A DNA stretch of 64,000 nt, from contig JBAIAA010000096.1 of assembly GCA_037893245.1 (NCBI GenBank), positions 496,001 through 560,000 on the forward strand, in the 5' to 3' direction. This stretch comes from Crossaster papposus. Its lineage: Eukaryota > Echinodermata > Asteroidea > Velatida > Solasteridae. Position 1 is the first letter of the stretch. Each line of letters begins with the position of its first letter. Both the position numbers and the translations under genes were made by a program. The notes under the pieces are model-generated. The model had not been told where the DNA came from. It was given only the letters and a program-made list of their open reading frames with translations, and did no database searches. Below, in pieces: positions 314-64,000 of this stretch.

Positions 314-3300
314 AGGCGACTAACACGGTTGGTCAACATGAGGGTCGCCTATTTTATGTAACTGATCAAGTCACCGGTTCACGATTCCTGATTGACACTG
401 GAGCAGAGGTCAGCGTCTGGCCCTCAACGGCCCAGGAGCGACGCACACCGAACAAGCTCACCCTCCAGGCAGTTAACCAGTCTCCGATCGCAACTCACGG
501 TGAAAAGTCCCTCACACTCAACCTCGGTCTGCGGAGATCATTTCGCTGGATTTTCATAGTCGCCGATCTACCAACTCCCATCCTCGGAGCAGATTTTTTG
601 CGACGTTTTGGATTGCTAGTCGACATCAAGCATCATAAGCTCATCGACACCACAACCAGCCTCGCTGTCAACGGGACTGTTACCTCGACACCCTCAATCT
701 GCCCGATGTTTGTCAAAACCGAGAGCGTCACGCGTTTCGACGACATCCTGCGGCAGTACCCTGACCTCACGCGACCTGTGTACCACGACGACGCAGTCAA
801 ACACACAACTACACATCACATCAACACCAGAGGCCCACCAGTGTCAGCTCGACCACGCAGGTTAGCCCCCGATCGCTATGTTGCGGCAAAGGCTGAGTTT
901 GAACATATGTCCGAGTTAGGAATAGTCCGACCCTCGAGCAGTAATTGGGCATCCCCTTTACACATGGTCCCTAAGAAGACGCAGGGTGACTGGAGGCCTT
1001 GCGGTGATTACCGCGCACTGAACCAAGCTACAGTTCCTGACTGTTATCCGATCCCTCATTTGCAGGATTACACAGCAGGTCTTCAAGGAAAAAAGGTATT
1101 TTCCAAACTAGATCTCGTAAGAGCCTATCATCAAATACCTGTTAACCCAGCAGACGTACACAAGACTGCTATCACGACCCCTTTTGGGTTGTTTGAGTTT
1201 GTCCGCATGCCCTTTGGGCTGCGTAATGCGGCACAAACTTTTCAGCGTTTCATGAATGAAGTGCTACGCGGCTTACCCTTCGTCTATGCCTACATTGATG
1301 ATATACTTGTGGCGAGTGAGTCGATGGAGGAACACGAGCAACATCTACAAGTTTTGTTCGCGCGTTTGTCTCAGTATGGAGTCATCATCAATCCAGCTAA
1401 GAGCCAGTTTGGTGCCTCCTCTCTGACATTCCTTGGTCACACCGTAGATAACTGCGGTATCCGCCCACTGGACGATAAAGTGAAGGTGATACAGGATTTT
1501 CCAGCACCACACTCACTACGCAAGTTGAGAGAGTTCTTGGGGCTCATCAACTTTTATCGCCGTTTCATCCCTCATTGTGCTAAAATTGTGCAACCACTGA
1601 CTGACTTGCTAAAGTGCAAGAAGAAAAACAAGGACATCACACTTGATGGTGCAGCGCAACAAGCGTTTGTCCAGGTTAAAACTGCCTTGGCAAATGCCAC
1701 TCTTCTTGTGCATCCTCAGTCATCTGCACCCATCTGCCTCATGGTTGATGCATCAGATTTTGCAGTGGGAGGAGTTCTACAGCAACTGGTCGACAGTAAA
1801 TGGGAACCCATCTCATTTTTCTCCAAGCGACTACAACCACCAGAGACAAAGTATAGTACCTTCGGTCGCGAGTTGCTGGCTGCATATTTGGGGATCCGGC
1901 ATTTTCGGCACTATGTGGAAGGTAGACAGTTTTGTATATACATGTTGTACACCGACCACAAGCCATTGACATACTCCTTCAACACGTCTCCTGACCGCTA
2001 CTCTCCCAGAGAAATACGCCATCTCGACTATATCTCCCAATTCTCCACAGACATTCGCCACATAAGTGGAAAAGAGAACACTGTAGCGGATGCTTTGTCT
2101 CGTTATGGGGTGAACACAGTCGGCACTTCAGCACAGATAGACTTTGCTAAGATCGCCGGTGCTCAAGAGAGAGATGAGGAGCTTAAACAACTCAAGACCA
2201 CCACTTCATCTTTGAGTTTCAAGCCAATTCCCCTACAAACCTCCGACGGCGAGATCATCTGTGACGTTTCTACCGGTGTAACACGTCCTTTCATCCCAAA
2301 GGCATTTCGTCGGCAAGTTTTCGACGCACTGCATGACTTATCGCATCCAGGAATACGGGCCACGCAGAAGTTGGTAACTTCACGTTTTGTGTGGCCGGGG
2401 ATCAACAAGGACGTACGAGCCTGGGCGAAGACTTGTCTTTCCTGTCAGCGATCAAAGATACATCGACACACCAAGTCTCCCCTCGGCACATTCGCGACGC
2501 CGGATGCCCGGTTTGATCATATCCACATAGACCTGGTCGGACCGCTACCTCCATCGGGCGGTTATACATATCTACTGACGTGTGTCGATCGGTATACCCG
2601 CTGGCCAGAGGCAATACCGGTTACAGACATCACAGCTGAGACAGTGGCACGAGCTTTTGTGTCACGGTGGGTGGCAGTTTTTGGAGCACCATCTACTGTG
2701 ACTACCGATCGAGGCCGTCAGTTTGAGTCGGCATTATTCAAGTCCCTCTCTGAACTCCTGGGATGTAAACGAACCCGAACAACGTCGTATCATCCTGCTT
2801 CTAATGGTCTCGTGGAGCGTTTCCACCGCCAGCTCAAATCAGCTCTAAAAGCCCATCATGACCAACGTTGGATTGAGACACTCCCGATTGTACTGCTGGG
2901 GATACGTACCGCTGTGAAGGCTGATCTTGGGTGTAGCGCCGCTGAACTGGTCTACGGTACCACAATCAGGTTGCCGGGACAATTTGTAGCAGCAAGCCAA
3001 GTAAGCAGCGACTATGAGCCAGGCGATTATGTTCACCGACTGCGACAACACATGTCCGATTTGCGACCTACACCGACTAGAACCCAACACAGACAGTCAC
3101 AAGTTCCTCCTGAACTGTCAACATGTACACATGTTTTCATTCGGATTGATGCTGTGAAGAAACCATTGCAACAGCCATACGAAGGTCCCTTTGAGGTAGT
3201 TCGTCGAACTGACAAGTTTTTCATTGTTTCCCGCAATGGAAAACACGACAGTGTCAGTATCGACCGTTTGAAGGTAGCATTCCTTGAGCCGGTTACCAAC

Positions 3301-3507
3301 CCTCACATTGCTCCAACTGCTTCCAACTCGTCCAGTTCTTCAGCCACAGTCACTGCCAACGACAACCTGCTAACGAGTTCGCCAATAACGGATGTGCCCA
3401 TCATGACATCTCAGCCTACTGATGTTGTACAACCAGAGTTCCGCACGACTCGTTCCGGTAGACACGTGCACTGGCCAGCCAAGTATTTGAACTATGATTG
3501 TGGCTGA
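286..3507 (+). CDS. pol: gypsy-1 Pol polyprotein (PR-RT-RNase H-IN)
   Basis: The frame is open for 1073 codons from 286 with no stop, in the -1 frame relative to gag, so it is probably made as a Gag-Pol fusion. The protease motif [11 protein letters not shown] is at about 388-420. Reverse transcriptase has the YIDD catalytic box at 1291-1302. RNase H has MVDASD at 1741-1758 and TDHKPL near 1951. Integrase has a Zn-binding region ending in CLSCQRSK (about 2430-2460), then catalytic-core motifs HIDLVGPLP (about 2524), [10 protein letters not shown] (about 2701) and VERFHRQL (about 2812), giving D, D and E. No chromodomain is evident in the tail, which ends [15 protein letters not shown]. All key residues I looked for are present, so this looks like a coding-competent pol that copies element RNA and integrates the cDNA. 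Confidence 0.93.
289..295 (+). other. -1 ribosomal frameshift heptamer GGGAAAC
   Basis: GGGAAAC is positioned as G GGA AAC relative to the gag frame, the canonical X XXY YYZ arrangement. The pol frame has a stop at 283-285 and is open from 286, and gag stops at 311-313. A shift can therefore occur only within 286-313, and the heptamer lies in that interval. A 7-bp stem can form downstream (314-320 with 344-350), 18 nt after the heptamer, which is longer than the usual spacer, so the stimulatory structure is uncertain. Betaretroviruses use the same type of heptamer at gag-pro; the role here is inferred. Confidence 0.72.
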
Positions 3508-4081: not shown

Positions 4082-5114
4082 ATCACAAACAGTCATGAAG
4101 TTGATTACAATTGCCTGTACCCTCTCAAACACGAAAGGGTGTAAATATGTAATACGTTAAAGTTAGGGAATAAAAAGTTAAAGTTAGACAAGATGACAAT
4201 ACTGCCGCTTACCTTAATGATTCTCTTGATAAAGAATGCGTAGTACCTAATGTCACATAAGAGTTCAAAAGCAAATATAATCTATGTCGGTTGGGAAAGC
4301 AACAGCTCTGGATGGCATTGGTGTTAAAATTGTCAAAATTGCTTCACCTTAGGCCTATATCATTAAATCTTTAACTGGTAATTTTACTGGTGACCTTTGA
4401 CCCTTTCTTAATTAGGGATGGCACCACTTGTAACTTTCTTAAGTGGCGGATTTTGCTTCAGCAAGGTGTCAGCTACACATTGACATTGACTTATTCTTGC
4501 ACTCGTAAAATGATTAAACGTGTAATTAGCACTAATTACAGACCTTCTTAATTAGACTTTGCACCATATATCATGTTCTTAAGCTTGTGATCAGTGATCG
4601 GTCTATGATAACCTATTTGTATGTATCATAAATGCAAGTTGCACTCAACGGTATAATTATTGGTGTTTAATGACTTATGATGACCTTTGACCCTTTCTTA
4701 ATTAGGGATGGCACCACTTGAAACTTTCTTAAGTGGCGGATTTTGCTCCAGCAAGGTGTCAGCTACACATTGACACTTGTTTTATCCTTGCACTCAAAAT
4801 TATGATTAAACGTGTAATTAGCACTAATTAATAACCTTCTTAAGTGTACTTAGCACCAATTATATTGTTCTTAAGTATACAAATCCTATTCAGTACACGA
4901 TAAACTTTCGACTCATGAAGAAATTATGTTTGCACTCAAGATTATGATTAAATCGAATTTTGGGGGGTCTGTCAGGGGCTCCCCCCTCCCAACGCACCAC
5001 TCGCCAAACTTAAGAAAACACATTTTGCAGTTGTCCCAGTCACCCCAACATATCCCACGCTTCAAACCTTTTGCACTCAAAATTATGATTAAACCTGGCT
5101 GGGCTCCTGGACTA
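4082..5114 (+). mobile_element. Foldback-like element, right part (unit A copy)
   Basis: This stretch is nearly identical to 45712-46742 in unit C, where the complete element has two inverted arms of about 0.7 kb. It contains two imperfect repeats of about 300 bp, with recurring blocks such as GACCTTTGACCC, AAGTGGCGGATTTTGC and TGATTAAACGTGTAATTAGC, and ends GGCTCCTGGACTA. Gypsy-1 has inserted in the element's central spacer, so the left arm would lie upstream of the window. No protein coding was recognised. Confidence 0.75.
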
Positions 5115-6016
5115 TTTGGGTGTGCTGTGCGTGTTGTCGGTGTGTTGTCGGTGAACAGTATTTTAGGCCAAATAAAAAAAAAAACATGTTTAGCGTCATG
5201 CCTTTTTTTTTTTTTAAAGCAAGGAGGAGGCCTTTTTTGTTGTTTTTTCCTTCAAAATGGCCGCCCGACACATCTCAATTCAAGTCATCATGCACACCCT
5301 AGCCTTCCTATTAGAATAAAAATATTTCCAGAGCATGTACACAGTGATGCTAAAGTCTAAAATACGATCTTATAATTTTAGTACCGATATCTTTAAAAAG
5401 ATTTTTTGTTTTTTTTAATTTTTTTGCCAAAATGATCAAATTTATCATTTTTTCAAAAAGAAAAAAAGAAAAGAAAAAAGGAAGCGGCCCCCAAAAAGAA
5501 GCGGGCGGTGACGCTAAGCTATACTGGCAGGACCACCCCCTGTATCTTGAGTAACACACCGATTGTGCTCAAATAATGTTGCCAAACGATGTACTTCCTC
5601 AATTTATCATCTAGACTGTCTTCCCATTGATGCCTGATATGGACTCTAACACCAGCGGAGAAAATCAAAGGTCATATGTGCATGATACATGACCTCAAAC
5701 CACATCTTAATTCCATGAATATTATGTATGGAATTTGGTTTAAAATTTTTTTGTAACAACTTGCATGGCTTTCAAGATAGGATGTAAGTTCTCAGCATTT
5801 TCCATAATTAACAGATTGGATTGACAAATGGGGGGAAAAAAAGTGATGATACAGTGTGTACTGATAGTTTAAAGAGAATGTGCAGTTTTGGTAAGAGGGT
5901 GATTTGGCACTTCTTTTAAATTCACATCTATAGCTCTGGCTGTCGATACCTACATGTATTTAGGCTATTATTAAATACATGAACACATTCTTTTTCTTTT
6001 TCCCAGACAAAACAAA
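5115..6016 (+). other. Upstream region and 5' UTR splice acceptor of TRIM-NHL copy A
   Basis: This region is conserved with 25070-26004 and 46743-47645, and partly with 61590-63377. It has long A and T homopolymers (about 5176-5215, 5400-5480) and no other gene. A pyrimidine-rich stretch ends in TTTTTCCCAG at 6006, ten bases before the ATG. All four gene copies keep a consensus acceptor here, so a non-coding first exon further upstream is likely. I could not locate that exon or a promoter. Confidence 0.6.
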
Positions 6017-8867
6017 ATGGCGACCGGACCTGCGATAAGTTTAGCTCTGGAGACTATTAGCAGACAGCATCTGGAGTGCGGCATATGTCACGAGAGATAT
6101 GAACGCCCTAAGATACTGGAATGCCTGCACAGTTTCTGTGAGCAATGTCTGCTGAAATACTACAGCATGAACCACCAGGGCTGTACGAAGATTCCTTGCC
6201 CCGTGTGTCGACAGGAGACGAAGCTTCCAGAGGCAGGGGTGCAGGGTCTGAAAACCAACTTTCATCTAAACGGTTTGGTTGAGGAGATTGAACTTCAGGA
6301 GAAGGTAGTGAGCTTGGGTGATGCTGGTATTTTGTGTGGTATTTGTGAGGAAGCCAATGAGGCAACACATAGATGTCTGGACTGCGACCAGAATGTGTGC
6401 TCGGCCTGTAGCAAAATGCATCTTCGATTTGCTGTCTCATCACACCACAAGGTGACTCCACTGAAGGACATTCGTGAGGGAAAGGTTACACTGACAAAGA
6501 AACATCAGAAACCACATCCAAAATGTCCGATCCATGAGGGCGAAGCAGCACGGTTCTTTTGCACGACATGTGAAGTGTTGATCTGCCGAGATTGTACCGT
6601 CGTTGACCACTGTAAGCCAGAACACGCGTACATTGACATGAATCTGGCTTCATCAACGTACAAGCAATCGTTGGCTGTTCTGTTTTCTCCACTTGAAAAA
6701 TCAATGAAGAAAATCCAGGAATCACAAGAAAAAGTCTCAAGACTGAAAAAAGATTTAAATCTCACAATTAAGAAAGTCAAGAAAGAAGTTCAAGACAGAG
6801 CAGCTAAGATACGAGCAGAGATCACGGCCCAAGAAAATCGCATCCTTGACGACATCAAAAACATTCAGTCGGACCGTGAGCAGAAACTGGAAGAATGTGA
6901 GAAAACCGCGAGCTTGGCTGTGGAGAGGTTTCAGTTTTCACTAGATACAGCTAGAGAGGTGACAAGGACTGCATCGGATAGTGACTTCCTGTCACTCTAT
7001 CCTACAATCAGCAAAGACTTGAAACTGTTGGCCGGTCAGGCTATTCCTAGAGTTGATGACAGGCTGGCATTTCTAAAGTTCAAGCAGAGTGGGGGGATTG
7101 GCGACATTAATCTGGGTGAGGTGGTGATGGAAGACAAGTGGGAGCTGTGTGGGGAGTTTGGTAGACGGGGAAGCGGTCCAGGAGAGTTCAATCTGGCTTG
7201 GGACATTGCTACTCGTCAACCTGATGAAATTGCAGTGACTGACCTCAACAACAAACGAGTTGTGATATGCAGCGTCGATGGCAACCAGAAAAGCACAATT
7301 CCGATGCAAGGATGTAAGTAAAAATAACATGCTATCTGCAAAAGTATGCACTTGAACAATGTCCATTCGCTCTTCACTAATATTCTCTGTATTTAAATTT
7401 TTAACAAATAAGGTAAACAAAAAAGTAAATAAAACTCCATTGAAACTGTAAAATTTAAAACAAAATAATGATCTACTGTATTCAATAAGTTGGTATTCAT
7501 GACATGGGAACGTTTTCAACCTCAATGTATATTCCATGAAAACAACATTTCAAAAGTGGACAAACCAAAAATGAAAATTTCACCTCAGTAATTTGATTTG
7601 CTTTATTCCTGAAGCTCTTTGCAAAAGATGAGCATTCCAAGCAAAATACATCTGATAGTTACAGAGAAAAAAACACATAAATACTGTGAATTTGATGAAA
7701 GAAAACATCGGTAAACAACGATATCCACAGATTTACACTGCAAAACCTGTGCTTACCGAGTAAACAGACTTTGTTTGCTAACAGTTGACATGTTTTGCAG
7801 CTAATACCCGTATCCAATTTCTAAACATTGATGTTCAATTACTAAAACTCCATCCTTATGCTAAACAGGCATGTTTAGCATGTAAACACGTTTACAAACT
7901 GATAGCAAATAGTGTTTAGAAAAGTCTTTACGAGCTAAACACAGTTTTTGCAGTGAATGTTTATCACTCTTAGGCATTTAAAAAAATTATATATAGCACT
8001 TTATTTACACAGAAAGATAAATCACGGTGAAGCATGTTATGCCGCACAATCTTGGGCATAAATAAACACCATCAAGATGAATTATAAGACGTGGTGATTT
8101 CTCAAGCATGTACACCAAATCTGAACAATGTATTTTTGACAGGCATTTTTCTAAAGTTTTTACTCTTTCAAGAATGTCTTTTTTGAACGGATTGTGCAAT
8201 AAATGCTTAATGCTTGTCTGTTTGTTTTGACATCATGACTCCTACAGGTCCACGCCGCATCGCAGCTACACGCACCAACAATCGTTTAGTGGTCGTTGAG
8301 GAAGGCACACATGTGAAAGTGTTTAAAAGCGACGACATGCTGGCCTACGAGTTTCCAACGGTGCCACCGAGTGAGGTCAGTAAGACCGCAGTTGACCTCT
8401 GGAGTGTAGCTGTCAAGAATGATGGTACCATCGTAGTAGGTGATGTCAAGAGGCTGGTGTTGACTGAACACAGGCCCACTGATGGTAAGCTCCTGCGTAC
8501 AATACCAGTCAAGGTTGCACCTTACTATCTGGCTGTAGACAGCAATGATAGAATTGTCATCAGTTCATGGTCACAGACAGTAAATGTTGCTGATGTTAAT
8601 GGTACTACACAGCGCACTATCAAACCCACCATCAATGGTCAACCAGTACAGCGCTGCCGCGGTGTGTACACTGATAGCTCAGGTATCTATGTTGCGATGT
8701 ATAATGGTTTTTTTAACACGTGTCATATCCACCACTATGACCCTCAAGGTGGCTTTCTCAAGTGCATTGCACAGGGTCTGTACTGTCCCCGCGGAATCAC
8801 ATTCACATCAGATGGGCAGCTGGCAGTGGCTGACTACTACTCAGTCAAGATGTATCACCAGGTGTGA
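6017..8867 (+). CDS. TRIM-NHL protein, copy A (RING, two B-boxes, coiled coil, NHL propeller)
   Basis: Two coding exons, 6017-7313 and 8248-8867, joined by a GT-AG intron (GTAAGT donor, CCTACAG acceptor). The join is phase 1 and gives exactly 639 codons, a 638-aa protein. The RING ligands are C21, C24, C36, H38, C41, C44, C61 and C64. B-box 1 spans about 105-150. B-box 2 spans about 170-203 (C170, H173, C182, C185, C190, C193, H198, H203). A Lys/Glu-rich coiled coil runs about 215-320. From about 370 six NHL-type repeats follow, the first in exon 1 and five in exon 2. No filamin-type domain is evident between coil and propeller, unlike TRIM2/3. By family it should be an E3 ubiquitin ligase with a ligand-binding propeller; its substrate is unknown. 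It is the first of four tandem copies, and exon 1 is almost identical to copy C. Confidence 0.92.
7736..7955. mobile_element. Intronic MITE with CACTGCAAAA ends, copy A
   Basis: The left end CACTGCAAAACCTGTG is mirrored by a right end reading CACTGCAAAAACTGTG on the other strand. The interior carries many TAAACA/TGTTTA pieces. The same element sits in the intron of copies B and C, where TA flanks it on both sides; here the right flank is AA. It therefore predates the gene duplications. No coding capacity. Confidence 0.65.
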
Positions 8868-9906
8868 CGTGACATTGTAATCAGTCATGTCAGTTTCTAA
8901 TCACCTATGACATGCCAATAGTTCAGTTTACTGTTGTGTATCGTTCTACATTTGTACATTGTTTGGTCATTGTTAACTGAAACCTGAAACCAAGGGAATC
9001 CCTTACCAATGCTCGTGCAGTGTGACGTCACATTTTCATAAAAGAATCTATCACACACAAAATATAAAGCCCAATCATCGATATTTATCGCATCGTAATT
9101 ATTCAAATCGGTCAAATTAGTGTTCTCTGAAACTCTTACCTTATGTTAAGAGCCACACATTCACAAAGGGCCACATATGTCAACAATGACATTTTTTTTC
9201 CGATTTGTTTTTCAGTATTTTGCTTTAAAACTCTGTACTTAAACATTTTGATATGCTTCTGTGAGCAAAACATCATTAATTATATTAACCCTTACAGTTC
9301 TCAATCCTCCAAAATCAATATGATTTTGCACACACCCTAGGGAGTTAGGGTTAATTACGTTATTGGTGCAAGAGACAGCCATCTTGATAAATGCATTTTG
9401 TTTTCACGAAGAGCCACACATCTTTGTTACATTTTCGGCCGTGCGCGCCTGTAAACACGTGCGCCCCTTCCATTATGGAAAAACACATTAAACAGAAAGG
9501 GCGGCAATGTAGAAAAACTTAAATTTACGTTTTCACAAATTAATTTACCATTACCATTGTGTTAATTCTAATTACTGGGTTTATGTAAAAAAATCACCTC
9601 TCATAGAATCATGTGAAGGTTTCCTTTATACTGCAAAAGTTGTTGCAAATAAAGTAGTATTTTTTGAAGTTTTAAAGTAGGAGAAAATCTTCCTGCGATT
9701 ATCTCAAAAACGATTTTCTTCAAAATCCACACATGTGGCTTATTGGTGGAACTACATGTATGATAATCCGCATCATATACTGTAGCTGACCATTTTAATA
9801 GTTATTTTACTGTGATTGGTCAAACCCTCGGTGATAAAATCCCCCAAGAACATGTAACTGTTATCATTATTTGTCGAATCTTAACTTTTCTTCTCCAAGT
9901 AATAAT
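8868..9906 (+). other. 3' flank of TRIM-NHL copy A, no gene seen
   Basis: AT-rich sequence conserved in the same place in units B and C. The short open frames here change freely between copies and resemble no family I know. The 3' UTR and poly(A) site presumably lie in the first few hundred bases, but no AATAAA stands out. Confidence 0.5.
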
Positions 9907-11380
9907 TTAATGGGTCAAGAAATCATTGATATCGAACATAACCTGGCAATGAAAAAAATGTGCAGGTTCTGATCTGATAAACAGTTCGCTAATAAAGAAA
10001 ATTACTTGTGCACTTTCTAAGCCTTGAACCCCCTCATCGTGAATGTTCCCCATCTCAACAGGAATAAATCCTGCAAAAGTGAAAGTTGCCAGAGTTACTT
10101 CTATCTTCAAGAATTGCTAGTTCGAAATTGGTTGATTATTATAGACCATTCTCAATTGTAACCACTTACAGTCGTACCGCTATTTTTTTTGAAAATATTA
10201 TACTGTGTAATATAATATATCTAACAATAGTTTTGTTAATGAGAAAATCACTCAACAACGCACGCTATCACTCAGTTAATTGATAAAGTAACTACATGTA
10301 CTAATATTAATTAAGCCTTTAGTACGCTTGGAATATTTTTAGACCTTTCCAATGTCTTTGGTACTATTAACCATGGTATTATAATTATCTGTCTTTAGAT
10401 GGTTATGAGTCTTCTCTCTCATTTCTTTTTACATGGCTTCCATTAACGATTGTTTTCTATTTTACAGTCTTTAACAAATCGTCAAAATAATTTTTGTATA
10501 CATGTTTTTTTGTATTGTGTTTGATGATGGCAGTACATTGTATTAGTCATAATAACATTGATGTACAATGTACTTGCAGATACATGTACGTATAGCTAAT
10601 ATGGAACTACTTTTAATAAACATGTAGGTTTTCCCGGTCAGTTTAATAGATTTGGCAGCCAAATCGTTTTTAAAGCTCTTTTTAATGTTTTTAAAGCTCC
10701 TTTTAATTAATGTTGCTGGCAACTTTATTTGTATATCTTTTAGGTTTTTTTATATAATTTTGTTATATATCATTTTGTCTCTAGATTTTACTTATCGAAA
10801 ACCAATGTTATTAAGTTATTAAGAAAACCAATGCTTAACCAGTGTATTAAGCCTAGTCCTTGTTTTTGTTCATTTTTATTTCTTGTTCTGATGTTTTTTA
10901 TTTGTCCTGTTCTTTCTTTACTGTCATTGTTTGTATATGTATTTTAATATTTGTTCTTATTGTCTTGCATATTCAAATTTGTATTTTATATGAATTTTGT
11001 TTGCTATAATTATGTTTCATCATTGTATTTGTTTGCTTAATCTTAACATGTTTTTAAAATTCCTATGAAACAGGAATAATGCTCTTAGTCTTAATGTTTT
11101 TGATTAAGGTGCTGTTTGTATTTATTGGAATAGTCTTTGGATCTAATATATCTTTTTCTCTGTGGTCCTTTTTATTTTTGTTTGAACGTTAATTTGAATG
11201 TTAATTTAAAATGTTAATTTAAATTTTAGATTTAATTTTTTTGTTTTGTTTTTGGTCTTGTTTTATTTCAATTTCTGTATTTCTAAATATTATTTAGGTT
11301 ATATGCAGGGCCCTTTTGGAAAGCAGTTTTTTAACTGATAAGGCCATCCTGGTTAAATAAAACGACAAATAAATAAATAA
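9907..11380 (+). mobile_element. Degenerate LINE fragment (unit A copy)
   Basis: Broken plus-strand translation matches the order of LINE reverse-transcriptase motifs: a KCAGSDLINSSLIKK-like stretch (about 9955), TGINPAKVKVARVTSIFKN (10058-10114), YYRPFS (10137-10154), ENIIL, then LDLSNVFGTINH (10339-10374), the counterpart of LDLSKAFDTINH. The rest of the RT is missing, and the element ends in a LINE-like 3' region (AAGGCCATCCTGGTTAAATA) with an AAATAAATAAATAA tail at about 11366-11380. Stops and frameshifts make it inactive. It lies in all three full units, so it was part of the ancestral unit. Confidence 0.8.
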
Positions 11381-12714: not shown

Positions 12715-14783
12715 ATTATTATTATTATTATTATTATTTATTCAGCCAAAACAAGCAACAATCATACAGACAATATATGATATTGAACAGATAAATCAAG
12801 ATATGTAACAGGATGTATACATTTTACGTGTAGATCATAAGAATACAGACTGGAATGAGAGAGAAGAGGAGGGGTACGGGTGTAGAGAGCAATAAAATGA
12901 AAGTCAAAGTAACAAAACATGTACAAGAAAGCAGCAATTAACAAAACAAGGGATAATAAGTAAAGGCAACATTAATCATAAAGGCAGCAGGATAGAAACA
13001 TGACAAAACAAACAACCCATTCTAAGATGGCCAGGATTAATAAAAGCGAACTTAATCACTGTGACTCGAGAGCCTACTAATCCAATCTTAAAATGGATCA
13101 CTTACAAAAATAATGTATTATATAAAAGCTAAAACTCTGTAAGAAAAAAAGAACATGAGGCAAATAATTAAATAAATAATATATGTAAGAATAAACATTT
13201 CATGTACTGTGTATCTTAACATTCAATCAGTCCCTAATATTCATAAGAACAAGAAAACAGTTTGCACTTTAAACAGACAACAATGTGAAGAACAAAAAAT
13301 ATAGTTGGGGGAAGGTACCATAAGTTTGAAGACGAAATATAGACAGGCAAAATTAAAAATAAACAGCGGCAACAATAGTGGGTGAGCTAAATAAACATGA
13401 ACATGCATGCAACACTAAGCCAAACCATGTGAAACAAACAGATAGTAGGAGCAAGACAACCCCATTCAAGCAATTACACAGACACACAATTAAGATAGGA
13501 ACTGGTAAACAACCAATGACACAGTATGACTGGCCAAAAGTGAAAACAGCTACATGTACATGTACTGACAAACAATCTAGGAAATAAACAAACAACCATG
13601 TAAATGACACTTACAGACAATCAAGGAAACAAACAAGTAACCTCCAGTAAGTAGGTTAACAAAAACAACACATCAGCACATCAGGTGTATAAACATGCAA
13701 CAAACAAACAAACAAAAACAAACAAACAAACAAACACCCCCAACACCACAAAAACTCACATAACTATAGTACATCTAGATATCATTGAAATGGTTACACA
13801 AGTACTTGTTGAAACATTTAAATGAATCCATAATTAGGGCGTTCGTAACACTTGTAGGCAGACTACTCCAAATACGAGGAAATGAATGGATAGATGTGTT
13901 CTTAAGGCTTTGCGTCCTCGCGTAGAGATGATTGAAAGTGAGTGTGTCCATGTGGCGGGTATTCACAGAAGTATGTGAGTTGACAGTGTGACAGTCAACA
14001 AGTTTAAATAAACATTTAGTGGTAAATTGGACAGTTATTCGTTTACGTCTGGATTCTAGTGTTTGCCAGTTTAGTTGTGTTAGTCTGTCCTCATATGACA
14101 TTGCCCCTCTCTGTTGTTTAAGAAACATTCTCGTTGCTCTCCTTTGGACTTGTTCTAGTTTAGCTGATAAAGTTGCTGTATATGGGCACCAGGCAGGCAG
14201 CCAGTACTCAAGAACTGATGACAAGTGACCGGTAGAGAGACATTAGTGCATTTGTAGAAGTTCCTCCTGCTGTATGCCAGATGAAACCAAGACTGAGTCT
14301 TATTTACCTTGGCAACCACATTGTTGACATGGTCGTTCCATGTAAGAGTACTGTTCATTGTGACACCAAGGTACTTGTAGGTGGTTGCAACTGTTAAGGG
14401 AGATCCAAGAATATAGTACTGCGGAAGGGCTAGTGGTTTCGTTGATCTAGTCATGTGCATTATCTTTGATTTGCTTGTATTAAGTTTCATCCCATTCGAC
14501 TCACTCCATCGGCTAAGGGCATCTAGGTCTGCTTGCAGGAGGAGTTCGTCTTCATGGGAATTGATGGGTTGATAAGTAAGTGTGTCGTCAGCGAAGAGTA
14601 GGGATTTGGTGGCGAGAGTGTGTGAAATGTCACTGATGAATAAATTAAACAGCAGGGGACCTAGGACACTTCCTTGTGGAACGCCAGATGTTACAGGAGA
14701 CCAAGATGAAAAGGCCCCATGGTACATGACTCGTTGATGCCGTCCAACAAGAAAAGATTTCAACCATGACCAAGTTTGACCAT
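12715..14783 (-). mobile_element. 5'-truncated LINE, minus strand
   Basis: The insertion is bounded by comparison with unit B, which reads uninterrupted at the same point (about 43000). Read on the minus strand it starts inside the reverse transcriptase and ends in an ATA/AAT microsatellite tail (plus-strand ATT repeats from about 12717). About 1 kb between the last coding residue and the tail shows no ORF and is a long 3' UTR. The 5' truncation and microsatellite tail are typical of target-primed retrotransposition. Family is jockey/L2/CR1-like, not resolved further. Confidence 0.85.
13775..14763 (-). pseudogene. LINE reverse transcriptase C-terminal half, one frameshift
   Basis: The upstream frame (14763 down to 14155) has SGVPQGSVLGPLLFNLFISD and the catalytic FADD (14584-14595), then GMKLNTSKSKIM and YLGVTM. 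The continuation (14224 down to 13775) is in another frame: SSVLEYWLPAWCPY, QRRATRMFL and the LINE C-terminal motif RIWSSLPTSVTNA. The two halves meet at about 14224 with a small indel, so the protein is broken. The N-terminal RT motifs and the endonuclease are absent. It would have been the RT of a non-LTR element. Confidence 0.85.
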
Positions 14784-16135: not shown

Positions 16136-17311
16136 ATGCCTACCAAGCAAAGGCGAAAATCTCGCAGGTTGCAGTCATTGTATGAGGGTGATGACAGCGA
16201 CATGTCGTTTTCAAGTCTACAGGCAGAAAGTTCAGAACTTCAACAACTCAAGCAAGAATTCGAACTCTTGAAGCTTTGTTCAGTGGAGGCAGAGAAAGAG
16301 CTGAAACAGCTCCGTGCAACTGCTGCGTTTCACAGTCCACCAACGGCTGAGCAGACAGGAGCAGATGTTTCAGCAAATTCGCCCCAGGAATCACAGCCAG
16401 TGATGTCAACCACCAGTACCAACCCTTCTACTGTCCCCAGGCCAACAGCAGCAGAGTCCCGTCTTTCCAGAACACAGCCGAGTCATAAGCTGGATGTTCC
16501 TCTCCCTCGCCAAGGAGAATTTGACGGCACGAAGTCATGGGAAGGCTTTGTCCGTCCTTTGATGGGTCTCGCCGAGGCTTGCGGCTGGACTGAAGAAGAA
16601 AAACGCTTCCGACTTGTAAGCAGCTTACGAGGGAAGGCGGCTGAGTACGTGTTTCAACAAATGGAACCTGAGGCAATCAAGTCGTCAGACACTTTGATAA
16701 AAGAGCTCGACAAGCGATTTGGCGAGCGACAGTTGCCAAACTACTACATCGCTCAGCTAGAAGCGAGGAGACATCAGCCGGCGGAGAAGCTGGCGGAGTT
16801 TGTAGCTGACATTCGCCGCCTCGTCTTTCGTGGCTACCCAACGGCTGACCCAGTTACAAGGGGAAGCATCGCCCTTCGCCACTTTCTGAAGGGTCTCTCT
16901 GATCAGCAGATGGCAGTTTCTGTTGGGATGACAAATCCCAAGTCCCTTGAGGAGGCCACTACAGCGGTGGAAAACTTCCTGAGCCTCCGTGATACTACAA
17001 GCCCAGGAAAGGCACATCGAGTGAACACCGTGCAGGCACCACCCGAGGCGGAGCCGGGGTTTGTCACCCAAAAACAGCTCAAGCAGTTTCAGGACAACCT
17101 CGACCGGCGGTTGAATGGAATCGTCAAGCTGATCAAAGATACGCCCGCCCACAACGCCAACAAACAGAGATTTTCCACGTCCGCTGAAGCCAAGAGGCAG
17201 AGGAGAGCTGACGATGTGACTTGTTTCAAATGTGGTAAGCCCGGCCACTTTGCAAACAAGTGCCCCGACAGAGCGGCCAAGGAGGTCGTCGTCATACAGT
17301 CGGAAAACTAA
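16136..17311 (+). CDS. gag: gypsy-2 Gag (391 aa)
   Basis: The first ATG after the LTR opens a 391-aa frame. A basic start (PTKQRRKSRR) leads into a Leu/Glu-rich coiled-coil-like segment (about 30-65), a Pro/Thr/Ser linker, and a retrotransposon capsid region (about 125-290) with WEGFVRPLMGLAEACGW and LRGKAAEYVF. Near the C-terminus is a CCHC zinc knuckle CFKCGKPGHFANKC (C363, C366, H371, C376) that should bind element RNA. The frame is intact and overlaps the start of pol. Gag is thus full length although pol is damaged. Confidence 0.93.
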   Translation: MPTKQRRKSRRLQSLYEGDDSDMSFSSLQAESSELQQLKQEFELLKLCSVEAEKELKQLRATAAFHSPPTAEQTGADVSANSPQESQPVMSTTSTNPSTVPRPTAAESRLSRTQPSHKLDVPLPRQGEFDGTKSWEGFVRPLMGLAEACGWTEEEKRFRLVSSLRGKAAEYVFQQMEPEAIKSSDTLIKELDKRFGERQLPNYYIAQLEARRHQPAEKLAEFVADIRRLVFRGYPTADPVTRGSIALRHFLKGLSDQQMAVSVGMTNPKSLEEATTAVENFLSLRDTTSPGKAHRVNTVQAPPEAEPGFVTQKQLKQFQDNLDRRLNGIVKLIKDTPAHNANKQRFSTSAEAKRQRRADDVTCFKCGKPGHFANKCPDRAAKEVVVIQSEN

Positions 17312-20300: not shown

Positions 20301-20631
20301 CAGCGCCGGACGAGCCACATCTCGGGTCGGTGGCTATAAGACAGAGGAAATAGCTGAACTGCAGAGAGCAGATCCAAACCTGAGAATCATCATGGAATTG
20401 ATGATCAAATCTCCCGACAGACCAAGCAGAGACCAGATAGCACGAGAGAGTCCCGCCTCAAGGAACTTGTGGTTGCTATGGCAACAGCTGGTGCTAAAAG
20501 ACGGTGTTCTTTTCAAAAGATGGGTGACCCCTGATCAAACCCAGTCTTACCTACAACTTGTTGTTCCACAAGAACTACAGGGTGCCGTTCTTAAAGCTAC
20601 ACACGACGCCGTGATCTCTGCTCATCTCTGA
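17239..20631 (+). pseudogene. pol: gypsy-2 Pol, first part: PR-RT-RNase H, then premature stop
   Basis: The -1 frame relative to gag is open from 17239; I saw no canonical slippery heptamer in the overlap. Counting from 17260, the protease motif reads DTRA at residues 64-67 where DTGA is expected (AGA at 17455-17457), a change that should abolish proteolysis. RT has DYRKLND and YLDD at 521-524. RNase H has DTDASD near 670 and TDHSALRW. An unusual linker follows: a Cys cluster (CLCYDG, CGGCEKCK), a hydrophobic run VLALMAIIVTLLLVPVCSL at 877-895, then a Pro/Ser/Gln-rich tract. The frame hits TGA at 20629-20631 inside the integrase zinc region, just after HDAVISAHL. Confidence 0.9.
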
Positions 20632-20632
20632 G

Positions 20633-26004: not shown

Positions 26005-29000
26005 ATGGCGACCGGACCTGCGATAAGTTTAGCTCTGGAGACGATTAGCAGACAGCATCTGGAGTGCTGCATATGTCACGAGAGATACGAACAGCCTAAA
26101 ATACTAGAATGCCTTCACAGTTTCTGTGAGCAATGTCTGCTGAAATACCACAGCACGAAGCGCCAGGGCTGTACGGAGATTCCTTGCCCCGTGTGTCGAC
26201 AGGAGACAAAGCTTACAGAGGCGGGGGTGCAGGGTCTGAAAACCAACTTTCATCTAATCGGTTTGGTTGAGGAGATTGAACTTCAGGAGAAGGTAGTGAG
26301 CTTGGGTGATACTGGTATTTTGTGTGGTATTTGTGAGGAAGCCAATGAGGCAACGCATAGATGTCTGGACTGCGACCAGAATGTGTGCTCGGCCTGTAGC
26401 AAAATGCATCTTCGATTTGCTGTCTCATCAAACCACAAGGTGACTCCACTGAAGGACATTCGTGAGGGAAAGGTTACACTGACAAAGAAACCTCAGAAAC
26501 GACAACCAAAATGTTCAATCCATGAGGGCGAAGCAGCACGGTTCTTTTGCACGACATGTGAAGTGTTGATTTGCCGAGATTGTACCGTCGTTGACCACTG
26601 TAAGCCAGAACACGTGTACATTGACAGGAATCTGGCTTCATTAACGTACAAGCAATCGTTGGCTGTTCTGTTTTCTCCACTTGAAAAATCAATGAAGAAA
26701 ATCCAGGAATCACGAGAAAAAGTCTCAAGACTGAAAAAAGATTTAAATCTCACAATTAAGAAAGTCAAGAAAGAAGTTCAAGACAGAGCAGCTAAGATAC
26801 GAGCAGAGATCACGGCCGAAGAAAATCGCATCCTTGACGACATTAAAAACATTCAATCGGATCGTGAGCAGAAACTGGAAGAATGTAAGAAAACCGTGAG
26901 CTTGGCTGTGGAGAAGTTTCAGTTTTCACTAGATACAGCTGGAGAGGTGACAAGGACTGCATCGGATAGTGACTTCCTGTCACTCTATCCTACAATCAGC
27001 AAAGACTTAAAACGGTTGGCCGGTCAGGCTATTCCTAGAGTTGATGACAGGCTGGCATTTCTGAAGTTCAAGCAGAGAGGGGGGATTGGTGACATCAATC
27101 TGGGTGAGGTGATGGTGGTGATGGAAGGCAAGTGGGAGCTGTGTGGGAAGTTTGGTAGACAGGGAAGCGGTCCAGGACAGTTCAATTGGGCTATGGGCGT
27201 TGCTGCTCGTCAACCTGATGAGATTGCAGTGGCTGACTTCTACAACAAACGAGTTGTGATCTGCAGCATCGATGGCAACCAGAAAAGCACAATCCCGATG
27301 CAAGGATGTAAGTTAAAATTACATGCCATCTGCGAAATGATGCACTTTAAAAATTGTCCTTCGCTCTTCACTAGTATTGTAATATTCTTTGTTTTTAAAT
27401 TTTTACAAATAAAGTTTTAAAAAAGTAAATAAAATTCTATTAAAACTGTTAATTTGAAACAGAATACTAATCTATTGAAGTAGTTAATATTCATGACATG
27501 GGAATGTTTTTCAATCTCAATGTATATTCCATGTAAACAAAATGTTAAAGTCCAAGAAAAAAACATCTTATAATTACTGTGAAGTACATGTAGATGAAAG
27601 AAATATTTGTGCGGAAACTTCAGTGTACGCGGGTTTACACTTCAAAACCTGTGTTTACCGAGTAAACATACTTTTTTTGCTAACATTTAACATGTTTAGT
27701 AGCTAAACACCTGTGTCCAGTTCCTAAACATCGATGTTTAACCCTAACCACCCTCCCTGAGTCCATCAAAATCCATTTCCTGTTTTGGAGGATTTTACCG
27801 GATTCAGGATACCTCCATATTGAACAAACTGGAGGAGTGTGATGGATTGAGGATTTTAAGCCTAGTGTTACTGCAGGAGTTTGATGGATTCAAGATATAG
27901 AAATTTAGGTGATGGACTGTGATGGACTCTATGGAGAAACACACTGCAATTTTTTGTATACCACCTTGGTATCCTGAATCCGCCAGAGTCCATCAACTTT
28001 TGCTGGTGGATTATTGATGGACTCAGGATCTCTCCAGTATGCATACTGGTGGAGTCTGATGGACTCATCAGGACACCAGCAGTTTTTGCAAACCAAAATT
28101 GGTGGATTGTGGCGGATCAGGATACTTTCTAGAAAAAGCAGTGAGGGGGTTAGGGTTAATGACTAAACACTATCCATCCTCTTGCTAAACATGTTTAGCA
28201 TGTACATTTTGTAAACATATACAAACTTTTAGCAATCAAGTGTTTAGAAAAGTGTTTACTCGCTAAACACAGTTTTTTGCAGTGTATGCTTATCACTCTT
28301 AGTCATAAAGGACCTTTTTTTAAATGCTATATCGCACATTATTCACACAGAAAGATGAATCACGGTGAAGCATTTTATGCCCCACAATCTGGGGCAAAAC
28401 ACCAAACATAACAAGATCATGCAAGATGAATTATAAGACGCTGTGATTTCTCAAACATGTTATGTATACCAAATCTTAACAATGTATTCTTTTACAGCCA
28501 TTTTTCTACTGCAGTTTTTACACTTTCAAGAATGTCTGTGTTGAAAGAATTGTGCAATAAATGCATAATGGTCGTTTGTTTGTTTTGACATCATGACTCC
28601 TACAGGTCCACGCGGCATCGCATCTACACGCAACAATAATCGTTTGGTGGTCGTCGAGGAATGCGCATTCTGTGTGAAGGTGTACAACAGCGATGACACG
28701 CTGGCCTACGAGTTCCCAACAGTGCCACCGAGTGAGGTCAGTAAGACCGCAGTTAACCTTTGGAGTGTAGCTGTCAAGAATGATGGTACTATCGTAGTAG
28801 GTGATGTCAAGAGGCTGGTGTTGACTGAACACAGCCCCACTGATGGTGAGCTCCTACGTACCATACCAGTCAAGGTTGCACCTTACTATATGGCTGTAGA
28901 CAGCAATGATAGAATTGTCATCGGTTCATCTTCACAGACAGTAAATGTTGCTGATGGCAATGGTACTACACAGCGCGTCATCAAACCCACTATCAATGGT

Positions 29001-29225
29001 CAACCAGTACAGAGCTGCTGCGGTGTGTACACTGATAGCTCAGGTATCTATGTGACAATTTATAATGGTTATAACACGGGTCATATCCACCACTATAACC
29101 CTCAAGGTGGCTTTCTCAAGTGCATTGCACAGGGTCTGTACTGTCCCCACGGAATCACATTCACATCAGATGGGCAGCTGGCAGTGGCTGACTGCTACTC
29201 AGTCAAGATGTATCACCAGGTGTGA
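26005..29225 (+). CDS. TRIM-NHL protein, copy B
   Basis: Exons 26005-27307 and 28606-29225, GT-AG, phase 1, joining to 641 codons (640 aa). Exon 1 has two more codons than copies A and C (GEVMVVMEGK against GEVVMEDK). All RING and B-box ligands are present; near the RING it reads LECCICHERYEQP, so an extra Cys follows C21. Exon 1 differs from A and C at many sites, so B is the more distant member. In exon 2 the propeller loops differ from C by 31 replacement codons against 6 silent by my count, for example SSSQ against SSEQ-type positions and YNGYNT against YNGKNT. The exon 1 frame stays open past the splice donor to 27420, but NHL homology resumes only at the spliced exon 2. A likely E3 ligase; ligand unknown. 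Confidence 0.92.
27638..28284. mobile_element. Intronic MITE with CACTKCAAAA ends, copy B, interrupted
   Basis: The counterpart of 7736-7955: left end CACTTCAAAACCTGTG, right end ACAGTTTTTTGCAGTG, with TA on both sides. It is split by the 414-bp TTAA element at 27742-28155. Confidence 0.65.
27742..28155. mobile_element. TTAA-flanked element with CCCTAACC ends (414 bp)
   Basis: It lies between TTAA at 27738-27741 and 28156-28159. The left end CCCTAACCACCCTCC mirrors the right end GAGGGGGTTAGGG. Copies A and C lack it at this point in the intron. TTAA targets with CCC-starting ends are typical of piggyBac-type elements. The interior is built of imperfect inverted pieces of the kind GGTGGAxTxxGATGGA. 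Not coding. Related copies are at 55415-55644 and 56289-56430. Confidence 0.7.
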
Positions 29226-29708
29226 CGTGACATTGTAACCAGTCATGTCAGTTTCTAATCACCAATGACATGCCAATAGTTCAGTTTACTGTTGTATATC
29301 GTTCTACATTTGTACATTGTTTTGTCATTGTTAACTGAAACCTGAAACCAAGGGAATCCCTTACCAATGCTCGTGCAGTGTGACGTCACAAATTCATAAA
29401 ATAATCTATCACACACAAAATATAAAGCCCAATCATCGATATTTATCGCATCGTAATTATTCAAATCGAACAAATTAGTGTTCTCTGAAACTTCTAACTT
29501 ATGTTAAGAGCCACACATTCACAAAGAGCCACATATGTCAACAATGACATTTTTTTCCCGATTTGTTTTTCAGTATTTTGCTTTAAAACTCTGTACTTAA
29601 ACATTTTGATATGCTTCTGTGAGCAAAACATCATTAATTATATTAACCCTTACAGTTCTCAATCCTCCAAAATCAATATGATTTTGCACACACCCTAGGG
29701 AGTTAGCC
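29226..29708 (+). other. 3' flank of TRIM-NHL copy B, no gene seen
   Basis: Closely matches 8868-9352 and 50497-50976. It is interrupted at 29708 by the hAT-like insertion. Confidence 0.5.
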
Positions 29709-47645: not shown

Positions 47646-50496
47646 ATGGCGACCGGACCTGCGATAAGTTTAGCTCTGGAGACTATTAGCAGACAGCATC
47701 TGGAGTGCGGCATATGTCACGAGAGATATGAACGGCCTAAGATACTGGAATGCCTGCACAGTTTCTGTGAGCAATGTCTGCTGAAATACTACAGCATGAA
47801 CCACCAGGGCTGTACGAAGATTCCTTGCCCCGTGTGTCGACAGGAGACGAAGCTTCCAGAGGCAGGGGTGCAGGGTCTGAAAACCAACTTTCATCTAAAC
47901 GGTTTGGTTGAGGAGATTGAACTTCAGGAGAAGGTAGTGAGCTTGGGTGATGCTGGTATTTTGTGTGGTATTTGTGAGGAAGCCAATGAGGCAACACATA
48001 GATGTCTGGACTGCGACCAGAATGTGTGCTCGGCCTGTAGCAAAATGCATCTTCGATTTGCTGTCTCATCACACCACAAGGTGACTCCACTGAAGGACAT
48101 TCGTGAGGGAAAGGTTACACTGACAAAGAAACATCAGAAACCACATCCAAAATGTCCGATCCATGAGGGCGAAGCAGCACGGTTCTTTTGCACGACATGT
48201 GAAGTGTTGATCTGCCGAGATTGTACCGTCGTTGACCACTGTAAGCCAGAACACGCGTACATTGACATGAATCTGGCTTCATCAACGTACAAGCAATCGT
48301 TGGCTGTTCTGTTTTCTCCACTTGAAAAATCAATGAAGAAAATCCAGGAATCACAAGAAAAAGTCTCAAGACTGAAAAAAGATTTAAATCTCACAATTAA
48401 GAAAGTCAAGAAAGAAGTTCAAGACAGAGCAGCTAAGATACGAGCAGAGATCACGGCCCAAGAAAATCGCATCCTTGACGACATCAAAAACATTCAGTCG
48501 GACCGTGAGCAGAAACTGGAAGAATGTGAGAAAACCGCGAGCTTGGCTGTGGAGAGGTTTCAGTTTTCACTAGATACAGCTAGAGAGGTGACAAGGACTG
48601 CATCGGATAGTGACTTCCTGTCACTCTATCCTACAATCAGCAAAGACTTGAAACTGTTGGCCGGTCAGGCTATTCCTAGAGTTGATGACAGGCTGGCATT
48701 TCTAAAGTTCAAGCAGAGTGGGGGGATTGGTGACATCAATCTGGGTGAGGTGGTGATGGAAGACAAGTGGGAGCTGTGTGGGGAGTTTGGTAGACGGGGA
48801 AGCGGTCCAGGAGAGTTCAATGGGGCTTGGGGCATTGCTACTCGTCAACCTGATGAAATTGCAGTGACTGACCTCAACAACAAACGAGTTGTGATATGCA
48901 GCGTCGATGGCAACCAGAAAAGCACAATTCCGATGCAAGGACGTAAGTAAAAATAACATGCTATCTGCAAAAGTATGCACTTGAACAATGTCCATTCGCT
49001 CTTCACTAATATTCTCTGTATTTAAATTTTTAACAAATAAGGTATACAAAAAAGTAAATAAAACTCCATTGAAACTGTAAAATTTAAAACAAAATAATGA
49101 TCTACTGTATTCAATAAGTTGGTATTCATGACATGGGAACGTTTTCAACCTCAATGTATATTCCATGAAAACAACATTTCAAAAGTGGACAAACCAAAAA
49201 TGAAAATTTCACCTCAGTAATTTGATTTGCTTTATTCCTGAAGCTCTTTGCAAAAGATGAGAATTCCAAGCAAAATACATCTGATAGTTACAGAGAAAAA
49301 AACACATAAATACTGTGAATTTGATGAAAGAAAACATCGGTAAACAACGATATCCACAGATTTACACTCCAAAACCTGTGCTTACCGAGTAAACAGACTT
49401 TGTTTGCTAACAGTTGACATGTTTTGCAGCTAAATACCTGTATCCAATTTCTAAACTTGATGTTAAATTACTAAAACTCCATCCTTATGCTAAACAGGCA
49501 TGTTTAGTATGTAAAAGTGTTTACATGCTAAACACAGTTTTTGCAGTGTACATGTATGTTTATCACTCTTAGGCATGGAAGACCTTTTAAAAATGTCTAT
49601 ATAGCACATTATTTACACAGAAAAATAAATCACGGTGAAGCATGTTGTGCCCCACATTGTGGGATTAAATAAACGCCAAAAACATAACAAGATCATGCAA
49701 GATGAATTATCAGACGCGGTGATTTCTCGAACATGTATACCAAATCTTAAAAATGTATTCTTTGACAGACATTTTTCTACTGTAGTTTTCAATCTTTCAA
49801 GAATGTCTGTGTTGAAAGGATGGTGCAATAAATGCATAATGGTCGTTTGTTTGTTTTGACATCGCGACTCCTACAGGTCCACTCCGCATCGCATCTACAT
49901 GCACCAACAATCGTTTGGTGGTCGTCGAGGGAGGCGAATCCCATGTGAAGGTGTTCAACAGCGACAACACGCTGGCCTACCAGTTCCCAACGGTGCCACC
50001 GAGTGAGGTCGGTAAGACCGCAGTTGACCTCCGCAGTGTAGCTGTCAAGAATGATGGTACCATCGTAGTAGGTGATGTCCAGAGGCTGGTGTTGACTGAA
50101 CACAGCCCCACTGATGGTGAGCTCCTACGTACCATACCAGTCAAGGTTGCACCTCACTATCTGGCTGTAGACAGCAATGATAGAATTGTCATCAGTTCAG
50201 AGTCACAGACAGTAAATGTTGCTGATGGCAATGGTACTACACAGCGCGTCATCAAACCCACTATCAATGCGAACCCAGTACAGAGCTGCAGCGGTGTGTA
50301 CACTGATAGCTCAGGTATCTATGTTGCAATGTATAATGGTAAAAACACGGGTCATATCCACCACTATGACCCTCAAGGTGGCTTTCTCAAGTGCATTGCA
50401 CAGGGTCTGTACTATCCCCGCGGAATCACATTCACATCAGATGGGCAGCTGGCAGTGGCTGACTGGTACACAGTCAAGATGTATCACCAGGTGTGA
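47646..50496 (+). CDS. TRIM-NHL protein, copy C
   Basis: Exons 47646-48942 and 49877-50496, GT-AG, phase 1, 639 codons (638 aa). Domain order and zinc ligands are as in copy A. Exon 1 differs from copy A at about 7 bases, three of them within a few codons of blade 1 (FNGAWGIA against FNLAWDIA). Exon 2 differs strongly from A and B at loop positions: SSESQ, SCSG, NGKNTG, YYPRG and DWYT. At the splice junction the codon becomes CGT (Arg) where A and B have TGT. Like the others it is probably an E3 ligase whose propeller recognises a ligand; no target can be named. Confidence 0.93.
49365..49548. mobile_element. Intronic MITE with CACTSCAAAA ends, copy C
   Basis: The counterpart of 7736-7955, shorter inside. 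Left end CACTCCAAAACCTGTG, right end CACAGTTTTTGCAGTG, flanked by TA. Confidence 0.65.
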
Positions 50497-63377: not shown

Positions 63378-64000
63378 ATGGCGACTGGACATGCGATAAG
63401 TTTAGCTCTGGAGACGATTAGCAGACAGCATCTGGAGTGCGGCATATGTCACGAGAGATACGATCGCCCTAAGATACTAGAATGCCTGCACAGTTTCTGT
63501 GAGCAATGTCTGCTAAAATACCACAGCACGAAGCACCAGAGCTGTACGGAGATTCCTTGCCCCGTATGTCGACAGGAGACGAAGCTTCCAGAGGCGGGGG
63601 TGCAGGGTCTGAAAACCAACTTTCATCTAATCGGTTTGGTTGAGGAGATTGTACTTCAGGAGAAGGTAGTGAGCTTGGGTGATGCTGGTATTTCGTGTGG
63701 TATTTGTGAGGAAGCCAATGAGGCAACGCATAGATGTCTGGACTGCGAACAGAGTTTGTGCTCGGCCTGTAGTAAAATGCATCTTCGATTCGCAGCAATG
63801 TCAAACCACAAGGTGACTCCACTGAAGGACATTCGTGAGGGGAAGGTTACACTGACAAAGAAACATCAGAAACAACATCCAAAATGTCCAATCCATGCGG
63901 GCGAAGCAGCGAGGTTCTTTTGCACTACGTGTGAAATACTCATCTGCCGAGACTGTACGGTCGTAAACCACTGCAAACCAGAACACTCGTACATTGAGGG
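63378..64000 (+). CDS. TRIM-NHL protein, copy D (N-terminal 207 aa, cut by window end)
   Basis: Open from ATG at 63378 to the window edge with no stop. The RING (CGICHERYDRP ... CPVC), B-box 1 and B-box 2 (CPIHAGEAARFFC ... CRDC ... HCKPEH) are complete, with the zinc ligands kept. Differences from A include Y28-D-R in place of Y28-E-R and IVLQEK in place of IELQEK. A splice acceptor (CTTTCTTCCAG) precedes the ATG as in the other copies. The coiled coil and propeller lie outside the window. Confidence 0.9.
   Translation, partial: MATGHAISLALETISRQHLECGICHERYDRPKILECLHSFCEQCLLKYHSTKHQSCTEIPCPVCRQETKLPEAGVQGLKTNFHLIGLVEEIVLQEKVVSLGDAGISCGICEEANEATHRCLDCEQSLCSACSKMHLRFAAMSNHKVTPLKDIREGKVTLTKKHQKQHPKCPIHAGEAARFFCTTCEILICRDCTVVNHCKPEHSYIE

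Follow-up and report, generated by a model that had tools for sequence, protein, structure and literature searches.

A sea-star TRIM-NHL gene array in which the top face of the NHL propeller has probably diversified

The NHL propeller is known mainly from conserved developmental regulators, and in known TRIM proteins the RBCC half serves dimerisation and ubiquitin transfer. TRIM2, TRIM3, TRIM71/LIN41 and Brat share the propeller fold and the domain order RING-B-box-coiled coil-NHL (subfamily C; PMC3503706), and most RNA-contact residues of LIN41 are identical across species (PMC5908797). Diversified recognition domains have been described elsewhere: the finTRIMs of teleost fish are expanded TRIMs with a conserved N-terminal half and a selected C-terminal B30.2 domain, with positively selected sites mostly in variable loops and a detected recombination site (PMC2657112); zebrafish NLR-B30.2 genes show gene conversion that is unequal between the signalling and recognition parts, the latter positively selected (PMC4852459); and the Podospora HNWD/HET-E propellers are under diversifying selection at few repeat positions on one interaction face, with exchange between family members (PMC4986451). 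Each of these papers is cited for the available part of its text. Here, we describe an array of TRIM-NHL genes that probably represents a large sea-star family in which the RBCC half is kept alike, the top face of the propeller is diversifying and the propeller cassette has a history of its own. In one open-licence collection of papers, covered mostly by titles and the beginnings of abstracts, we found no account of echinoderm TRIMs with a hypervariable NHL domain.

The window (the whole 64-kb stretch of sea-star DNA analysed) holds three full-length copies (A, B and C) and the start of a fourth (D), all on the + strand (Table 1). Each full copy consists of exon 1, one intron and exon 2; exon 1 encodes the RING, two B-boxes, the coiled coil and the start of the propeller, and exon 2 encodes blades 2-6. 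The joined frames are open and splice signals are present in all three (for copy A, donor GTAAGT after 7313 and acceptor CTACAG before 8248). A Pfam scan of the spliced copy A protein gave zf-C3HC4 at 21-64, B-box matches at 106-146 and 167-206, and NHL, and no filamin domain. None of the eight RING Cys/His residues varies across 71 aligned relatives, and A, B and C have all of them; with these ligands intact E3 ligase activity is putative. In an AlphaFold2 model of the relative P0001 (71 aligned relatives; overall pTM 0.48), a predicted long helix at 207-317 was taken as the coiled coil. By domain content the copies are thus TRIM-NHL genes (class VII/subfamily C) with RING, B-boxes, coiled coil and a predicted C-terminal six-bladed NHL propeller.

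Table 1. Features of the TRIM-NHL array (window positions; codons in copy A numbering; residues in the order A/B/C).
Feature	Position	Strand	Basis
Copy A exon 1: RING, two B-boxes, coiled coil, NHL start from ~7139	6017..7313	+	Pfam hits, donor
Copy A exon 1, NHL-coding 3' end: closing strand and blade 1	7139..7313	+	model of relative P0001
Copy A intron	7314..8247	+	7314-7920 near-identical to C; 7975-8247 divergent
A-C divergent block: 3' intron and most of exon 2	7879..8721	+	three-segment fit, odd-one-out counts
Copy A exon 2: NHL blades 2-6 to stop	8248..8867	+	acceptor; AlphaFold2 model of P0001
Copy B exon 1	26005..27307	+	
Copy B exon 2	28606..29225	+	
Copy C exon 1	47646..48942	+	
Copy C exon 2	49877..50496	+	
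Copy D, exon 1 start, cut by window end	63378..64000	+	
Hypervariable columns, exon 1: 384, 392, 410, 411, 413; splice: 433			
Hypervariable columns, exon 2: 451, 540, 567, 568, 570, 584, 588, 612, 614, 629, 630			
Codon 451 (E/E/G), blade 2 strand b end	8301..8303	+	
Codon 540 (W/S/E), blade 4 b-c loop	8568..8570	+	
Codons 567, 568, 570 (570 = R/C/S, classed mid-strand), blade 5 entry	8649..8660	+	
Codons 584, 588 (588 = F/Y/K), blade 5 b-c region	8700..8714	+	
Codons 612, 614, blade 6 entry	8784..8792	+	
Codons 629 (Y/C/W), 630, blade 6 b-c loop	8835..8840	+	

The array is interspersed with other elements. Retrotransposon coding regions occur twice, before copy A (598-3507) and between A and B (16136-21913); both encode reverse transcriptase, RNase H and integrase domains, in an order that is presumably Gypsy-like. 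A reverse-transcriptase fragment, perhaps of a non-LTR element, lies on the minus strand at 14155-14763. Upstream of copy C is an inverted repeat (44761-45389 and 46114-46742) with 629-base arms, 97% complementary and separated by 724 bases, of which 44761-44975 is a reverse match to 4900-5114 upstream of copy A. The sequence at 33626-34693 and 39888-40824 is a repeat-rich stretch with tandem units of 146-178 bases, of which pieces recur 6.1-6.3 kb further on. The 3' flank of copy B carries an insertion of ~0.9 kb relative to A (29706-30593), and open frames of 154 codons run antisense to the end of exon 1 on the minus strand in A (7073-7537) and C (48702-49166).

Among the best 120 of 243 protein matches to copy A, 108 bear sea-star names (61 Patiria miniata, 31 Asterias amurensis, 8 A. 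rubens and 8 Acanthaster planci), and the best 20 are paralogs from P. miniata (Asteroidea, Valvatida, Asterinidae), 65-76% identical to copy A over the whole protein. From these 120, sets of 20, 13 and 25 proteins were used for the main comparisons and 7 more as a fourth group; the 55 excluded were other species, ENA rows, partial proteins and shorter P. miniata proteins, along with three full-length P. miniata rows on other contigs and 6 of the 31 A. amurensis rows. Columns with at least six different residues among the 20 P. miniata paralogs were called hypervariable, a rule that uses P. miniata data only, with the cut-off of 6 chosen after trying 5, 6 and 7 and with the A/B/C alignment already seen. 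Seventeen such columns were found in the propeller, codon 588 alone showing 13 residues among the 20 paralogs. Five of the 17 lie in exon 1, within its NHL-coding 3' end, so the variable surface extends beyond exon 2. The idea of a recognition repertoire in the earlier note is supported.

The same columns vary in two test sets, a second P. miniata clade (clade 2; 13 proteins, 51-54% identical to copy A) and A. amurensis (25 proteins). Mean entropy at the 17 columns is 2.33 bits in clade 2 and 2.10 bits in A. amurensis, versus 0.47 and 0.44 elsewhere in the propeller, and mean pairwise identity there is 18% and 27%, compared with 87% and 82% for the RBCC half and 81% and 83% for the remainder of the propeller. 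At 18 columns, two or more of the three groups exceed 1.9 bits of entropy; all 18 are in the propeller and none in the counted RING, B-box 1, B-box 2 and coiled-coil stretches. Nine columns do so in all three groups, again all in the propeller. Variation is concentrated, not general, as the propeller overall does not exceed the rest of the protein in variability. Some columns did not repeat (neither 384 nor 451, the latter a gap, varies in A. amurensis, and 413 is low in clade 2), and the fourth group (7 P. miniata proteins) shows a weaker pattern (1.27 vs 0.52 bits). In P. miniata, entropy is 1.16 bits over the 53 propeller columns that vary among A, B and C, higher than the 0.47 bits over the 215 that do not (p = 6e-9). 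At a subset of 14 hand-picked columns the residue strings are distinct in 58 of 58 proteins, and sharing of variable residues among P. miniata paralogs drops weakly with distance (r -0.17, p 0.009). B-box 1 of P. miniata P0001-P0020 has a second variable cluster (copy A residues 125, 132, 134, 140 and 145), which is invariant among A, B and C; as a second variable region it was discarded, with 5 columns of at least six residues in clade 1 and none above 1.9 bits in the other two groups.

The loops of a four-stranded propeller blade are divided between two faces, with d-a and b-c on one and a-b and c-d on the opposite one. The P0001 model predicts six blades, most 10-residue blocks of its propeller reaching pLDDT values near or above 90, and Foldseek matched it to the NHL domain of TRIM2 (7qrv, E 9e-20) and also to that of TRIM3. 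On this model the hypervariable columns cluster on one face, 16 of the 17 being placed at the top (d-a or b-c loops, or strand ends), one mid-strand and none at the bottom (Fisher, top vs bottom, p = 7e-5), where the face classes rest on the strands of one model as read by us and on our cut-off, and strand a of blade 6 was set by hand at 614-617 (DSSP gives 616-617 only). Residues that vary among A, B and C make up 30/110 of the predicted top, 13/90 of the bottom and 9/62 of the mid positions. Variable spots number at most two per blade. They occupy the d-a and b-c loops, 15-18 residues apart, and under the strict rule sit at equivalent places in five of the six blades (1, 2, 4, 5 and 6); in blade 3 (484, 500) and at 523 and 525, the first spot of blade 4, high variability is reached only with a looser cut-off or in other groups.

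A face of this kind could bind RNA, as in LIN41 and Brat, and the copies could be diversifying against transposon or viral RNAs, not proteins, a reading that we hold to be unlikely while giving it real weight. The RNA-contact residues listed for zebrafish LIN41, when paired by us (R564/R581, R611/K628, Y658/R676, R707/F722 and R752/R770), are 15-18 residues apart in successive blades, which is the spacing of the variable spots (PMC5908797, available part); 6fpt_A 290-309 aligns with copy A 612-631, the top 20 Foldseek matches include RNA-bound NHL domains, and copy A 614 and 629 may correspond to LIN41 R707 and F722, going by equal spacing alone. Against RNA as the ligand, K/R make up only 12-20% of residues at the variable positions, alongside many aromatic residues, Asn, Ser, Gly and Cys. 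A role of the variable face in self or mate recognition, or in development, in place of defence seems improbable to us, with the precedent that fungal propeller repertoires selected at equivalent positions act in self/non-self recognition (PMC4986451, available part).

Along the array, the copies are mosaics of closely and distantly related segments. Across 5200-10300, A and C are ~1% apart outside one block, and a three-segment fit gives an A-C divergence of 0.60% to 7879, 10.6% to 8721 and 1.5% beyond (log-likelihood gain 92.6, versus a highest value of 12.4 in 30 shuffles). The similar-different-similar pattern of the earlier note is therefore upheld with altered limits, as the block runs from 7879 to 8721 instead of from ~7960 through the whole of exon 2. 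It starts within the intron, where A and C differ at 6/570 positions in 7314-7920 and at 37/272 in 7975-8247, and it ends ~150 bases before the stop for both A-C and A-B. The first A-B break (7184) falls in the NHL-coding end of exon 1 and the second at 8721, and the B-C breaks are at B 27178 and B 28763. Recounting reproduced the earlier differences for exon 1 of A and C (7/1297) and for exon 2 of B and C (44/620, with 31 replacement and 6 silent codon changes); exon 2 differs at 47/617 positions for A-C and 46/617 for A-B. Low divergence in the first 175 bases 3' of the stop was likewise found, with 3 B-C differences in place of the ~4 given before, 3 for A-C and 6 for A-B. The replacement changes between A and C in exon 1 number three, in codons 393 and 396, all at the NHL end and none in the RBCC region, and the split codon 433 also differs.

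From 5200 to ~7880, B is the odd one out in 28 of 31 differing 5'-flank columns and 81 of 85 5'-intron columns. Within the block the three copies are about equidistant, with odd-one-out counts for A, B and C of 19, 14 and 19 in the 3' intron and 22, 18 and 18 in exon 2 to ~8720, and in the 3' flank they differ by only 1.3-1.8%. With A, B and C about equidistant in the block, B was rejected as donor of the A or C tract, and a runs test gave no signal of a fine-scale mosaic inside the block (p 0.40). In trees of both halves, A, B and C form one clade versus 20 P. miniata paralogs and one Acanthaster protein (100/100 and 99/98), and because they group together for both halves the trees are silent on the donor paralog of exon 2. 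We have good confidence that exchange or conversion of a propeller cassette took place.

The earlier note had also held that exon 2 evolves faster than adjacent noncoding DNA. The argument in that form lacks support, because divergence in the noncoding 3' intron equals or exceeds that of exon 2 (A-C 37/272 vs 47/617). Exon-2 dS is 0.139 for AB, 0.102 for AC and 0.058 for BC, and whole-exon dN/dS is 0.48, 0.73 and 1.40, significantly above 1 in none of the three pairs (BC one-sided p 0.26), so that whole-exon dN/dS was set aside as too blunt a test of selection. The note had named an exon-2 dN/dS at or below 1 over a full paralog set as refuting its idea; taken on their own, the AB and AC values lie in that range and BC does not. 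Since the block includes noncoding intron and has these ratios, the whole of exon 2 is not evolving faster than neutral; the high exon-2 dS and the divergent 3' intron mean that a different age or ancestry of the block explains most of its contrast with the flanks, and the block itself is for the most part a cassette that is old or was exchanged.

Exchange could then be the whole explanation, with a diverged paralog as the source of exon 2 and the 3' intron and with loops varying through tolerance, without selection; the divergent intron, the exon-2 dS values, the whole-exon ratios and the behaviour of the A-B pair all fit such an account. It was weighed by comparing dN among A, B and C at the 11 exon-2 members of the 17 P. 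miniata-defined columns with exon-2 dS. Replacement is in excess at these sites in two of the three pairs, dN/dS being 1.98 for AB (p 0.17), 5.29 for AC (p 0.0003) and 7.62 for BC (p 0.00007), where the pairs share sequences and are not independent, there being three full-length DNA copies in all; the remaining exon-2 sites give 0.39, 0.52 and 1.04. The site set of cut-off 5 gives 1.83 (p 0.075), 3.37 (p 0.003) and 6.68 (p 0.00002), that of A. amurensis 1.03 (not significant), 3.36 and 6.70, and that of P. miniata clade 2 0.65 (not significant), 3.44 and 4.68, with p <=0.009 for AC and BC in the last two. With the 3' intron in place of dS as reference for these sets, AC and BC give p 0.0015-0.035, except 0.052 for BC with the clade-2 set. 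No site set gives a significant excess for the A-B pair.

The residues at these sites also depart from neutrality. Unconstrained sites are expected to drift to the mutational residue mix, which from the base composition of copy A exon 2 would be 11% F/W/Y/H and 35% A/V/L/I/M/P, versus 21-34% and 7-16% observed at the 17 columns. Relaxed constraint and pseudogenes were rejected as explanations, given the undisrupted frames, the full set of RING ligands and a residue mix far removed from the neutral expectation. The site excess over both dS and the 3' intron in two pairs, the lack of any of the 17 sites in bottom-face loops and the non-neutral residue mix make exchange without selection quite improbable, and in our reading the top face of the NHL propeller is very probably under diversifying selection. 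Both halves of the earlier proposal of 'selection, exchange, or both' are supported, but selection is seen neither in A-B nor over the whole exon, its signal lying at the P. miniata-defined top-face sites. That the copies are alleles or mis-joined haplotypes assembled in tandem is very improbable: the ~1% between A and C is a possible allelic distance for a marine invertebrate, but the same sites vary in other paralog sets, including in another species, and C and D are not a second haplotype of A and B because D is equidistant from A, B and C (52-53/623 bases).

A scheme that would join selection with exchange runs as follows. Copies would arise by tandem duplication, with flanks recently duplicated or homogenised, and the propeller cassette (the 3' end of exon 1, the intron and exon 2) would differ in ancestry from its flanks; A and C would be a recent duplicate in which one copy had a tract of ~0.85 kb, carrying blades 2-5, overwritten by sequence of an unseen paralog; alternatively, the tract stayed distinct while the flanks were homogenised. 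The RBCC half may supply dimerisation and ubiquitin transfer, as in known TRIMs, and the propeller top may bind a paralog-specific ligand that is then tagged. The top face would thereby bind variable ligands, most likely intracellular pathogen or other non-self molecules, with binding directing ubiquitination, and we lean somewhat towards immune or non-self recognition as the reason for diversification. More tentatively, sea stars may possess a germline-encoded, antibody-like intracellular repertoire of dozens of TRIM ligases, joining one conserved tagging half to propeller tops that are shaped by selection and by reshuffling of the propeller cassette and in which aromatic residues, Asn, Arg, Ser and Gly are prominent, each paralog with its own non-self ligand. 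Echinoderms are, to our knowledge, a phylum without antibodies, and the finding points to a diversified recognition surface in the NHL propeller there. The residues for testing are named here, and the paralogs form a natural library of solutions on one scaffold.

Compared with known systems, the 10 Pfam families found in copy A include no B30.2/SPRY, NACHT or WD40, so that neither the B30.2 domain of finTRIMs nor the NACHT and WD40 domains of HNWD proteins were found in it. The sea-star copies resemble finTRIMs in belonging to an expanded TRIM family with a conserved N-terminal half and a C-terminal recognition domain, in the sea star one with probable selection on its loops, and differ in having an NHL propeller where the fish genes have B30.2 and several middle exons (PMC2657112, available part). 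Zebrafish NLR-B30.2 genes are similar in the unequal histories of their two parts and differ in being NLRs with B30.2, not TRIMs (PMC4852459, available part). The HNWD-like feature, variable positions at equivalent blade places on one face, is present in the predicted propeller; HNWD proteins have WD40 domains in NLR-like proteins with near-alike repeats that change in copy number, whereas the sea-star blades are unalike and six (PMC4986451, available part). In fold and domain order the copies match TRIM2, TRIM3, LIN41 and Brat, but the face corresponding to the largely invariant RNA contacts of LIN41 varies (PMC5908797, available part). We read the locus as diversifying selection on NHL recognition surfaces borne by a conserved RING/B-box half, finTRIM-like with an NHL propeller; the copies would appear to work most like finTRIMs and zebrafish NLR-B30.2 genes, and in geometry like HNWD, as members of none of these families.
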